This document shows, piece by piece, positions 3,021-49,750 of a stretch of DNA of 64,000 bases; position 1 is the first letter of the stretch; each line of letters opens with the position of its first letter. Source of the DNA: Botrimarina colliarenosi (GTDB lineage Bacteria; Planctomycetota; Planctomycetia; Pirellulales; Lacipirellulaceae); assembly GCF_007859955.1 (NCBI RefSeq), contig NZ_SJPR01000001.1, positions 265,806 through 329,805 on the forward strand. Direction: 5' to 3'. A program made the position numbers and the translations under genes. The notes under the pieces were generated by a model. The model had not been told where the DNA came from, searched no databases, and was given only the letters and a program-made list of their open reading frames with translations.

Positions 3021-3070
3021 CCTGCCCCCCTCTTCCTGATTACCGACCCCAGATTACCGACCCCCTGCCC

Positions 3071-11037: not shown

Positions 11038-11285
11038 GCGGGGAGGTCTCCTCGGAGGTGAGATGCCGGATAAGGGCGCCCTCCGCCAGCTTCCGTCGAG
11101 GGCGCCCCATCACCCTACTCACCGTAGGAGTGGCGATGGGGGCGGTGTCGCAAAACGGGGGCTGATGCCGTACACCGGGAGACTCCCACAACGCGCGCCG
11201 TCGGCTCTCCGCTGATCGCAATGCGCGCTCCTCGGTTGAGCCCGCGATTTACAACGTAGGCCTACCCGAGCGCATTGGCGCCAGG

Positions 11286-43197: not shown

Positions 43198-43428
43198 TCA
43201 CCGGTTGGGGGTCAGCGGACGCCGCCACGCGAAGATCAGGCGCGTCAGCCCGTCGAGGTATGCCCAACTCCGTTGATGGCTGGCTTTCCGCGCCTTCGTC
43301 AGCCGGAGGAAACGCCCGCAGGTCCGCCGGCCGACGCGGGTGGGTGACTCACGGACAGTGGCGGCGTCCGTCCCCCCAACCCTTGTAGTCGTTTCACCTA
43401 CGCCCCCAGCCCTCGCAACAGCGCCCCG
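43198..43428 (-). pseudogene. Open reading frame without start codon (coding remnant?)
   Basis: On the minus strand 77 codons are open between two stops, with no ATG, GTG or TTG in frame. The C-terminal 45 or so residues look protein-like (GRRTCGRFLRLTKARKASHQ, RSWAYLDGLTRLIFAWRRPL ending TPNR). The family is not recognised. It could be the decayed 3' end of a gene, or chance in GC-rich DNA. Confidence 0.3.
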
Positions 43429-43457
43429 TCAACAGCGCTCCGTCAACAGCCGCCCGT
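43416..43457. repeat. 14-bp tandem repeat, three copies
   Basis: Units caacagcgccccgt, caacagcgctccgt and caacagccgcccgt stand head to tail, next to an R3 unit. Confidence 0.9.
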
Positions 43458-43559: not shown

Positions 43560-43759
43560 AGCCCCGGCAGGGGCGGCAGCGCGTAGCCAGGGGCGCAAGC
43601 CCCTGGACCCGATCACGCAGCAAGCGAAAAGCCCCGGAGGGGCGACAGCAGGCCGGCAAGCCCGAGTTGCTGTCGCCCCTCCGGGGCTTCGTCCGTAGGG
43701 CACGCCGCCTTCCAGGGGCTCGCGCCCCTGGCTACGCGCTGTCGGCCCTCCGGGCCTTT
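43560..43759. repeat. Nested palindromic element R2, copy 2
   Basis: Same build as 29758-29952: outer agccccggcaggggcggcag and cgtagccaggggcgc arms facing gcgcccctggctacgcgct, and an inner perfect 22-bp inverted repeat (43629-43650 with 43668-43689) starting aagccccggaggggcgacag. It is followed by gggccttt. Confidence 0.9.
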
Positions 43760-46636: not shown

Positions 46637-46709
46637 GAATTGCGGAAGTCGGATTGCGGATTGCGGAATCGACCGCTGTCGAGCCGCGCCCGGTAGGAAG
46701 CGGAGGCAT
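46637..46709. repeat. Heptamer-containing element HE, intergenic copy
   Basis: gaattgcggaagtcggattg then cggattgcggaatc, an 8-base spacer and gtcgagccgcgcc...aggcat. The order (GCGGATT)n, GCGGAATC, about 8 bases, GAGCC, then a G-rich end is shared with 49194-49266 and, reversed, 48546-48622. It lies between oleD and aspS. Confidence 0.8.
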
Positions 46710-46765: not shown

Positions 46766-47809
46766 TCATTCCGCCTTCCCACGTCCCCCTTCCGCCTTCG
46801 CCCGCAGCCATTCGCCCAGCCGCCGCATGCCCTCGGCCGTCGAAATGGCCGGCCGGTAGCCGAAATCGCGGTTGGCGGCCTCTTTGTCGAACCAGTGGTC
46901 GGTCGCCAATTGGCGGGCGACGAACCGGGTCATGCGGGGCTCGCTCTTGAAGTCTCGGAGAGCCCACTGCTTCGCTTCCAGCACCGCGCCGGCGGCGTAG
47001 GCGGCCGTGGCCGAGACCGATTTTTTAACCGGGGGGAGCTCGACGAGGGCGAGGATCTCATCGACCCACCGCCACAGATCGACCGGCTCGTCCTGGGTGA
47101 CGAAGTACGCCTTGCCGGCGTTCTTGGGCTCGGGCAGCGCCAGCTCGTCGGCCGCCAGCAGGTGGGCCGCCGCCGCGTTCTCGACGTAGACCATGTCGAC
47201 CCGGTTGCCGCCGGGGCCGACCCGCCGAAGCTGCCCCGCCCGGGCGCGCTCAACAAGCCGCGCCGTCAGGTGATGGTCCCGCGGCCCCCACACCAAGTGC
47301 GGCCGCAGCGACGTGGTCCGCAGCATGCCACTGCCGGCGACATCGCTGCCGTCTTGGGTGAGCACGAACTGCTCGGCAATCGCCTTCGAGTGCGGGTAAT
47401 GCGCGAGCCACCGCGTCGGGTACGGCGCGTCGGCCGTGACGCCCCGTTGGTCGGCGCCGTCGAAGACCACGCTCGGGCTCGAGGTGAACACCAGCTGCGT
47501 GACGCCCTGCTCACGGCACGCGCCGAGGACGTTGAGCGTGCCGTGGACGTTGGCCTGGAAGTAGTCGAACCACTTCCCCCAGACGCCGACCTTGCCGCCG
47601 ATATGGAAGACGCCATCGACCTCTTCGCAAGCGGCGAGCACCGTCGCCCGATCCGCCAAGTCGCCCTGCCGCATCTCGACGCCGAGCCGCACAAGTTCGG
47701 GATAATCGCCCCGCGCCAGCCCGCGCACGACGTCGCCGCGAGCAATCAATTGCTCGCAAACGAAGCGGCCCAAAAAGCCGCCGGCGCCGGTGACGAGGTA
47801 ACGAGGCAA
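46766..47809 (-). CDS. oleD: NAD(P)-dependent 3-beta-HSD-family reductase, OleD-like
   Basis: A 347-residue short-chain extended reductase: Rossmann GAGGFLG at 8-14, HIGGKVGVWG, catalytic YPHSKAIAE (YxxxK), LRPHLVWGPRD, VDMVYVENAAAAHLL. The type and order fit OleD, the reductase that forms the 2-alkyl-3-hydroxyalkanoate in long-chain olefin (Ole) synthesis, and its neighbour upstream is the OleC-like ligase (86-base gap). The start is TTG at 47809 (LPRYLVTGAGG); no usual Shine-Dalgarno precedes it because a (gtgggaa)5 array abuts the start. OleA and OleB are not in the window, so the symbol is tentative. Confidence 0.8.
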   Translation of the reverse strand: MPRYLVTGAGGFLGRFVCEQLIARGDVVRGLARGDYPELVRLGVEMRQGDLADRATVLAACEEVDGVFHIGGKVGVWGKWFDYFQANVHGTLNVLGACREQGVTQLVFTSSPSVVFDGADQRGVTADAPYPTRWLAHYPHSKAIAEQFVLTQDGSDVAGSGMLRTTSLRPHLVWGPRDHHLTARLVERARAGQLRRVGPGGNRVDMVYVENAAAAHLLAADELALPEPKNAGKAYFVTQDEPVDLWRWVDEILALVELPPVKKSVSATAAYAAGAVLEAKQWALRDFKSEPRMTRFVARQLATDHWFDKEAANRDFGYRPAISTAEGMRRLGEWLRAKAEGGRGKAE

Positions 47810-47813
47810 GGCA

Positions 47814-47848
47814 GTGGGAAGTGGGAAGTGGGAAGTGGGAAGTGGGAA
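47814..47848. repeat. Heptamer array (gtgggaa) x5 before oleD
   Basis: Five exact copies of gtgggaa, starting five bases upstream of the oleD start codon. Confidence 0.95.
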
Positions 47849-47896
47849 GGATTTGCAAAGAGCCCCAGCACGTTAGTGCGGGGAGTGAATCACCAA

Positions 47897-49750
47897 TCAG
47901 CGTCGCTTACGCAATTGTTTCGCCGCCCAAACGGCAAGCTCTTCGCGGCGGATTTTGGAATTGTGGCGGATGTCGGTGGGGAGCGATTTGCGCTGCAAGA
48001 ACTTCATCTTGCCTGCCTGGTCAGCAAATCGCTCGGCATGGACATCGGCGAGACCAACTAACAATGCGTTCGCTAGCTCCTCCAGAGAGGGATGTCCGCT
48101 TCGGCCTAGAACTCGCTTTAAGTTAACTCGGACGTAGACAACTACTGGCAATTGCGATCCACGACTGCCCAATCCGACAAGAGCCGTTCGATGGACCATC
48201 GGCTGTACGTTGAAGACATTTTCAACGCATTCGGTGTAGAGCGTCCCCTCGCTCGTAACGACGCGCTGCGACTTCCGCCCGCAGTACCAGAAGCGTTCTT
48301 GCTCGTCGAAGTAACCAACATCGCCGATGCGGTGCCAGATGGTGTCACCGTCGGCGATCTTCGCGATCTCGTTGTGGGTCGGACGTTGTTGGTCGCTCCC
48401 TGACGGTCGCGGTTCTGCTTCCAAGTATCGCTGGCTGACCTGTGGGCCGCGGACGATGAGTTCGCCGATCTCGCCTTGGGGGAGTTCTTCGGTGTCGTCG
48501 ATCGAGGCGATCGGGGCGTCGGTGATGCGGATGATGCGCCAGTTGGAGGTTCCACCCCCGACTGACGTCGAGGGCTCGCCATCACTCGATTCCGCAATCC
48601 GCAATCCGTAATCCGCAATTCCTTTGAACTTCCTCCCCACGCAAACCCCCGCCCCCGCGTCGGTCTTCGCCGCCGTTGCGCCCAGAATCTCTTGGGCTTC
48701 GATCGTGGCGATCGGGAGGGCTTCGGTGGCGCCGTACGGCGTGTGCATCGTCGCTTCGGGGTGGACGCACGCCAGGGTCCGCCGCAGCACCTTTGCCGGC
48801 ACGGGGGCGCCGCACGAGAGAATCTTGCGGAGCGTCGGGATCGATTCGCCCGTCGTCTCACAATGTTGACTCACTCGTTCCCACACGGCCGGCGACGCGA
48901 AGGCCTGCGTCACCTTCCAGTGGTTCGCCGCGGCGAGAAGCTTCTTGGGATCGCACGACGCGGGCCGCGAGAAGTCCATGTCGGGCAGCACGACCGTCAC
49001 GCCGCAGGCGACGTTGAACAGCCCGAAGAGCGGGAAGCAAGCCAAGTCGATGTCGCCGGGCCGGATGTCGTACTCCTGCTGGATCATCGCGCACTGCGTG
49101 ACGAACGTCTCGTGCGTGTAGAGCACCCCTTTCGGCGGGCCAGTGCTGCCGGAGGTGAAGACGATCGCCGCAGGGTCGGAGGCGGTGGTGTGAGCGATTG
49201 CGGATTGCGGATTGCGGATTGCGGAATCATTCGGCGTTGAGCCGCGCACGCCAGTAGGCGGAGTCGTCACACCGCCAAGCCGCCGCACCGACGCCAACGT
49301 CTCGCCGCCCCAGAACCAACGGCGGCCGACCGTGACGTTGAGCTTCGCGTTCGCGAATTGCTTGCGTTTCAGCACCCGCAGCGCATGGCCGAGAGGGATG
49401 GCGACGAAACCGTCGGGGTTCGTTGATGCGAGGCAGCGGACGATGTTCTTACGCCCGAGGCCCGCGTCGACGAGCACCATCGTCGCGCCGGTCCGCAGCA
49501 ATGCGAACACGAGCGCCACGAACTCAACGCCCGGCTTGACCAGCAGAGCGATCCGCCTGCCGGGGCCAACGCCCAGGGCCGCTAAGCCGTGCGCTAACTG
49601 GGTGGCGTCGCGGTCGAGATCGCCGAGCGAGACCGTCCGCCAGCCGTCGCCTTTGGCGGGCGTCGCCAGGGCGACCGCGTCGGGCCGCTCCCGCGCCGCC
49701 TCGGCAAGGCGGTCGGCGACGTTCACACGGTCCTGAGCGGGCGCGTCCAT
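47897..49750 (-). CDS. oleC: AMP-dependent acyl ligase, OleC-like (beta-lactone synthetase type)
   Basis: A 617-residue adenylate-forming enzyme: AIVFTSGSTGPPKGVLYTHE (P-loop-like A3 motif), HTPYGATEALPIATI (typical of OleC), then RIGDVGYFDEQERFWYCGRK and the A10-type end. OleC turns the 2-alkyl-3-hydroxyalkanoate to a beta-lactone in long-chain olefin formation. Two in-frame insertions interrupt it: SAIRNPQSAIAH near residues 182-195 and GIADYGLRIAESSDGEPSTS near residues 375-400, both encoded by the same heptamer element (49194-49266 and 48546-48622). Both fall outside the motifs named above, so the enzyme may be intact. oleD follows in the same operon; oleA and oleB are absent nearby. ATG at 49750. 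Confidence 0.8.
   Translation of the reverse strand: MDAPAQDRVNVADRLAEAARERPDAVALATPAKGDGWRTVSLGDLDRDATQLAHGLAALGVGPGRRIALLVKPGVEFVALVFALLRTGATMVLVDAGLGRKNIVRCLASTNPDGFVAIPLGHALRVLKRKQFANAKLNVTVGRRWFWGGETLASVRRLGGVTTPPTGVRGSTPNDSAIRNPQSAIAHTTASDPAAIVFTSGSTGPPKGVLYTHETFVTQCAMIQQEYDIRPGDIDLACFPLFGLFNVACGVTVVLPDMDFSRPASCDPKKLLAAANHWKVTQAFASPAVWERVSQHCETTGESIPTLRKILSCGAPVPAKVLRRTLACVHPEATMHTPYGATEALPIATIEAQEILGATAAKTDAGAGVCVGRKFKGIADYGLRIAESSDGEPSTSVGGGTSNWRIIRITDAPIASIDDTEELPQGEIGELIVRGPQVSQRYLEAEPRPSGSDQQRPTHNEIAKIADGDTIWHRIGDVGYFDEQERFWYCGRKSQRVVTSEGTLYTECVENVFNVQPMVHRTALVGLGSRGSQLPVVVYVRVNLKRVLGRSGHPSLEELANALLVGLADVHAERFADQAGKMKFLQRKSLPTDIRHNSKIRREELAVWAAKQLRKRR
48546..48622. repeat. Heptamer-containing element HE, in-frame in oleC (reverse orientation)
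   Basis: Read on the minus strand: ggaattgcggattacggatt, then gcggattgcggaatc, then gagtgatggcgagccctcga and a G-rich tail. It encodes the insertion starting GIADYGLRIAESS. Confidence 0.8.
49194..49266. repeat. Heptamer-containing element HE, in-frame in oleC (forward orientation)
   Basis: gcgattgcggattgcggatt, gcggattgcggaatc, then attcggcgttgagccgcgca and a ccagtaggcgg tail. Read on the gene strand it encodes NDSAIRNPQSAIAH. Confidence 0.85.

Follow-up and report, generated by a model that had tools for sequence, protein, structure and literature searches.

The oleC-like gene of Botrimarina colliarenosi raises the question of how a repeat that also lies between neighbouring genes came to be inserted in frame, twice and in opposite orientations, into an enzyme. 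The window analysed is a 64-kb stretch (G000:C1:265806-329805) of the 5.27-Mb draft genome of this species (G000, 22 contigs). The host gene is followed by a gene for an OleD-like reductase and then by aspS (Table 1). Its product scored above the cut-off of profile model NF006754, and the olefin beta-lactone synthetase models scored below theirs. Rfam returned no family at the composite repeats in the window, where its only matches were tRNAs and one Acido-Lenti-1 RNA at window 43712-43757 (+; 42.9 bits, E 2e-6).

Table 1. Repeat-derived features in and around the oleC-like gene (window coordinates).
Feature	Position	Strand	Basis or remark
OleC-like AMP-dependent ligase (host gene)	47897..49750	-	617 aa; best model NF006754
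OleD-like 2-alkyl-3-oxoalkanoate reductase (oleC neighbour)	46766..47809	-	model match
Composite insert 1, OleC loop ahead of FTSGSTGPPKG motif	49194..49266	+	orthologue comparison
(GCGGATT)4 heptamer array, in frame in OleC	49196..49225	+	minus-strand peptide SAIRNPQSAIA
REP-type hairpin GAG-CCGCGCAC-GCCA-GTAGGCGG-AG, in frame in OleC, antisense to OleC	49239..49263	+	6/8 stem pairs
Composite insert 2 in OleC	48545..48619	-	net +72 bp vs 21-nt orthologue loop
GCGGATT heptamer array, ~4 copies, in frame in OleC	48591..48619	-	peptide ADYGLRIAE
REP-type hairpin GAG-CCCTCGAC-GTCA-GTCGGGGG-TG, in frame in OleC	48553..48577	-	8/8 pairs incl. G-T; peptide EPSTSVGG
Third repeat-derived stretch in OleC, REP subfamily GA(G/A)CCGCGACCGTCAGGGAGCG	48394..48415	-	peptide EPRPSGS
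GCGGATT heptamer array, ~4 imperfect copies, OleD-like gene/aspS spacer	46639..46667	+	array scan
Decayed REP-type hairpin GAG-CCGCGCCC-GGTA-GGAAGCGG-AG, OleD-like gene/aspS spacer	46681..46705	+	hairpin scan
(GTGGGAA)5 heptamer array, oleC/oleD spacer	47813..47849	+	array scan
Bulged-A REP-type hairpin GAG-(CCCC)A(GCAC)GTTA(GTGC)(GGGG)-AG	47860..47885	+	13 nt after GTGGGAA array

Three copies of the arrangement (GCGGATT)n-GCGGAATC-N10-GAGCC-hairpin were identified, one in the OleD-like gene/aspS spacer (46637-46709) and two in frame within the OleC-like gene in opposite orientations. Their places and the two encoded peptides agree with the first-pass annotation, which had put the copy at 48545-48619 at 48546-48622. 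The spacer before GAGCC, given there as 8 nt, is exactly 10 nt in all three copies, and what had been described as a G-rich end belongs to a hairpin with an 8-bp stem and a G..A tetraloop, of which it forms the 3' arm. Spacer sequences and hairpin stems differ among all three. Exact GCGGATTGCGGAATC occurs four times in the 5.27-Mb genome, three of them inside the window, compared to none for the reversed control. Rather than an element of about 75 bp with one set sequence, the composite is a heptamer array adjoining a REP-type hairpin, each of which is also found alone. Two further features had escaped the first-pass annotation: in the oleC/oleD spacer, the GTGGGAA array and the bulged-A hairpin make up a fourth composite, and positions 48394-48412 in OleC match, exactly over 19 nt, a different REP subfamily, GA(G/A)CCGCGACCGTCAGGGAGCG (10 copies in 2 Mb at no more than 2 mismatches). 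The latter stretch (48394-48415) falls in a loop that is variable among orthologues. The flanks of insert 1 are inverted (GGCGGTGGTGTGA / TCACACCGCC; window 49194-49275), so that this entire insert lies within an imperfect outer palindrome.

The alignment of OleC orthologues showed that, at the level of sequence, both inserts are gains relative to orthologues, located in variable loops and in frame. The site of insert 2 is a constant loop of 21 nt in 23 of the 26 readable orthologue cases and 30 nt in G003, compared to 93 nt in B. colliarenosi and 120 nt in the sister species G001. In G001, a single-contig genome, the insert is orthologous: both hairpin and heptamers are present, together with an additional GGGACGG array. 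The loop that holds insert 1 is short in most relatives, and in G001, G003, G006 and G019 it carries other dispersed repeats, among them the PSPLGGGARGGG and NPSLQGRG types. As the inserts of these relatives are mostly other than heptamers, this loop is regarded as a hot spot for repeats of any kind. The assignment of loops rests on the alignments; a single-sequence AlphaFold model (mean pLDDT 35.5) was set aside. Since the inserts are absent from orthologues, their peptides are not ancestral protein sequence, and no orthologue was found with the same peptides but without the DNA consensus. The earlier proposal that a dispersed repeat was inserted in frame is upheld, as orthologues lack the inserts while the insert DNA recurs elsewhere. 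An origin of the peptides as ordinary protein sequence, or as an artefact of assembly or annotation, is next to impossible: OleC loop lengths do vary across the family and the assembly is a draft, but copies of the DNA, hairpin pairing included, are also found outside genes, 23 other genomes have 21 nt at the insert 2 site, and the single-contig genome has the orthologous insert 2. This reading is refuted unless the G000 and G001 assemblies are both wrong at the same site. Database peptides such as SAIRNPQ can thus be repeat-derived insertions instead of functional sequence; a literature search with this peptide or the heptamer strings gave no match.

The GAGCC half of the composites is a REP-like palindrome consisting of an unpaired GAG head, an 8-bp stem and a G..A tetraloop. 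In 2 Mb of G000, 166 copies of types A and B were found, compared to 11-18 by chance. Type A (GAG-CC-N6-G..A-N6'-GG) accounts for 142 copies (11-17 in Markov controls) and type B, with a bulged A, for 24 (0-1 in Markov controls). Most copies (139 of 166) are extragenic, and genes other than oleC also carry REPs in frame. A motif picked without a pairing requirement, GAGCC-N6-G..A-N6-GGWG, gave 106 instances compared to 3 for a control motif, and their stems paired at 4.96 of 6 positions, compared to 3.47 for shuffled arms (maximum 3.84 of 1000). The complementary stem with covariation that characterizes REPs is hence present in a set chosen blind to pairing. The head is GAG in 119 of 167 copies, and a minority of 23 copies has a TAG head, in some as cgcGTAGCC. 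Inverted REP pairs within 110 nt occur 22 times in the 2 Mb (for example C1 692255/692319), and three of the nine RAYT genes (PF01797, Y1_Tnp) in G000 are flanked on both sides by such pairs, an arrangement also seen in G001 and G003; the other six RAYT loci in G000 are without REP pairs. In the oleC-oleD spacer of G001 (L262, ~11050-11120), a REP loop is apparently split by a second, unrelated palindrome (TTAGCCCCCGGTCAATGACCGGGGGCTAA).

These properties correspond to the REP / REPIN-RAYT system, in which short, high-copy palindromes often form inverted pairs, some beside RAYT genes and some in frame in genes. Di Nocera et al. (2013, PMC3733652) describe in-frame intragenic REPs in housekeeping and repair genes, uvrA included, sometimes twice per gene. 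Unlike the GTAG/CGTC-tagged REPs, the main family described here has the unpaired GAG head and the G..A tetraloop; the TAG-head minority fits the GTAG REP superfamily. Unlike REP / REPIN-RAYT, REPs are here joined on their 5' side by a heptamer array.

Heptamer arrays were counted at a length of at least 17 nt. The same 2 Mb of G000 contain 41 such arrays with 20 distinct units, and in the tandem array scan period 7 was commoner than periods 5, 8, 10, 11 and 13. According to gene calls from our own hexamer model, 19 of the 41 arrays lie in genes, a few of them at gene starts. Units that are stop-free in all six frames make up 14 of the 20, compared to 72% of random heptamers; stop-containing units lie outside genes, except one at a predicted gene start. 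The three GCGGATT composites have 5/6, 3/6 and 3/6 open frames, with stops in one to three frames each. Because the units are stop-free no more than by chance and the copies have closed frames, the open frames of the in-gene copies are attributed to selection after insertion. Of the two explanations offered in the first-pass annotation, selection for frame is therefore supported, in the form of filtering, and an element built to be stop-free is rejected. In-frame inserts derived from heptamers were also found in MutS (G000:C1:350498), UvrA (G000:C6:80079) and LysA (G000:C6:131784; loci L271, L287 and L303), and MutS and UvrA of G001 have different heptamer units in the same loops. The arrays are clustered (16 close pairs compared to 2.3 expected), with four arrays within 2.6 kb at oleC. 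An inverted partner within 120 nt is present for 8 of 41 arrays, and at least 8 make heptamer palindromes. At another locus (L139; G000:C1:1128937-1134342), five clustered arrays have different units, and several of these arrays fall in prepilin-like genes, within the N-terminal leader (..GFTLVELLVV..).

Dispersed 7-nt arrays resemble the known, STRR-like heptamer repeats of bacteria. PMC4692102 and PMC4679880 describe GGGAATC in Xanthomonas, GGGGA(C/T)T in Nostoc, the STRRs of Calothrix (cited in PMC4692102) and TAACTGA in Beggiatoaceae (PMC4679880), and the latter relays the proposal that 7 nt is the stretch held by DNA polymerase. In these sources, the Xanthomonas and Nostoc repeats are G-rich on one strand and known arrays are mostly between genes. 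B. colliarenosi, in contrast, has many coexisting units and commonly has arrays in genes.

GCGGATT arrays are scattered over 10 of 149 genomes of the phylum and also occur on viral contigs, at unlinked loci and in distant phyla. Of 44 genomes of the family, only those of this genus have the strict GCGGATT composite, at 5 sites. A scan of the whole collection gave 12 scattered matches to the strict composite, compared to about 4 by chance according to our estimate; being near chance, these were not taken as spread beyond the genus. This distribution bears on whether the ~75-bp composite is a single MITE-like miniature mobile element that moved as a unit and was inserted three or more times here. 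The three local copies are alike in heptamer unit, polarity and exact 10-nt spacer, and the clustering at oleC and elsewhere fits such an element. We nevertheless consider it rather improbable, because the strict composite is so restricted, each of the three copies has its own spacer sequence and stem, various heptamer units are combined with various REP subfamilies, and array and REP each also occur alone. No terminal inverted repeats were seen, as MITEs require, and the search for target duplications at the junctions gave only a 4-bp GGAA flanking the 48545 insert (insert 2), too short to be meaningful.

The relation between arrays and REPs was shown to be non-random and polar. On the G-rich strand, a same-strand REP lies 13-21 nt downstream of 7 of the 41 arrays, compared to 0 in the three other configurations, and none of 2000 permutations reached this number (mean 0.23 expected). 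In a looser scan, a G-rich heptamer word was found 5' of 13 REPs and 3' of 0, with 1.7 expected. The polarity was replicated in 440 kb of G001, where 2 of 21 arrays have a downstream REP and 0 the other way. Tandem arrays of any period are about four times as dense 5' of REPs as in other intergenic DNA (1.52/kb compared to 0.40/kb). Periods 7, 14 and 21 account for 13 of 19 tandem arrays 5' of REPs compared to 27 of 99 elsewhere (p=0.001), and with period 7 left out, periods 14 and 21 account for 5 of 11 compared to 2 of 74 (p=0.0003); these period statistics are post hoc and concern about 20 arrays of one genome, G000, from which most of the repeat statistics come. In G001 and G003 the 5' bias of tandem arrays recurs (7 compared to 2), but period 7 accounts for only about half of them, so that the period bias is weak there. 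Turnover of the heptamer unit at a persisting REP was also shown: in two spacers, G000 has the REP in common with a sister species but not the unit. The oleC-oleD spacer has GTGGGAA in G000 and a GATTGGG-like unit in G001. At the same place in the oleD-aspS spacer, G000 has GCGGATT and G003 has GGCGGAT plus an intact REP.

We consider it probable that the composite is a heptamer array beside a RAYT-associated REP hairpin, that arrays grow in place, that selection filters the outcome, and that the OleC copies are passengers. Each copy consists of two neighbours, an array and then a same-strand REP hairpin 13-16 nt downstream. REPs may be copied by RAYT-like single-strand processing, and the hairpin may promote tandem duplication on its own 5' side in steps of ~7 nt, so that arrays beside REPs would lengthen and take on new units where they stand. 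Insertions that break proteins would be removed by purifying selection, which would leave in-frame, stop-free copies in loops. In-place formation beside REP hairpins cannot be the whole story, because arrays without REPs exist, heptamer palindromes included: in 34 of 41 cases no REP lies within 40 nt of the array, so that a REP is not required. As GCGGATT is found at unlinked loci and across distant phyla, purely local slippage is insufficient as an explanation.

The arrays themselves might instead be mobile, with a preference for landing 5' of REPs or of other hairpins. Although REP-free arrays in genes such as MutS, UvrA and LysA, the identical GCGGATT unit at unlinked loci, and the 8 arrays that face an inverted partner would suit this, we judge it unlikely: the arrays in G000 are not linked to any enzyme or carrier sequence, and the periods 14 and 21 and the 18-nt unit of locus-specific sequence that also occur 5' of REPs are unexpected from a dispersing heptamer. 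A stronger form of in-place growth, which we put forward as a doubtful possibility, is that REP hairpins, perhaps with RAYT nicking, generate tandem repeats, stalled replication or nick repair duplicating the 5' flank in 7-nt steps. Heptamer arrays would then be created and renewed at a near-fixed distance from the REP. If true, this would connect two unexplained features of bacterial genomes: that heptamer repeats are so abundant and that REPs have spread. The polar REP-heptamer coupling opens the question of how heptamer repeats arise in bacteria to testing.

The inserts could also have been kept for a function, with the hairpin or the G-rich array regulating translation or termination, or with the protein being altered. 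Gyrase binding and effects on mRNA are known for REPs of other bacteria, and G-quadruplex formation in vitro for G-rich heptamers (PMC3733652, PMC4692102); the same MutS, UvrA and OleC loops were struck repeatedly. Across species, however, these loops carry repeats unrelated in length and sequence, or nothing, and no peptide is conserved, which makes retention for function very unlikely. Most likely, the OleC inserts are passive passengers.

As REP-type repeats tolerated in frame and filtered by selection, the OleC inserts are a known phenomenon. They are comparable to the Rickettsia palindromic elements (Ogata et al., 2000, 2002), which, according to the review PMC10969869, are in frame in unrelated protein genes and apparently tolerated. 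In-frame insertion in unrelated genes is shared (OleC twice, others by REP or heptamer), but the Rickettsia elements are ~150 bp with a conserved peptide, whereas those described here are ~60-75 bp, vary in sequence and frame and contain tandem heptamers. What looks new is the composite of heptamer array and REP, the polar coupling, the turnover of the unit at a conserved REP, and the periods 7/14/21. In the available parts of PMC3733652, PMC10969869, PMC4692102 and PMC4679880 and in a combined literature search, no report was found of heptamer arrays that keep to one side of REPs.

Heptamer-like arrangements with other periods were observed elsewhere in the window. Tandem repeats at 2885-2938 (18-bp x3) and 3038-3064 (14-bp x2) flank a pair of REPs, ~2951(+) and ~3018(-), each on the outer, 5' side, and a 14-bp tandem repeat (CAACAGCGCCCCGT) at 43416-43455 lies 5' of a REP at ~43475(+).
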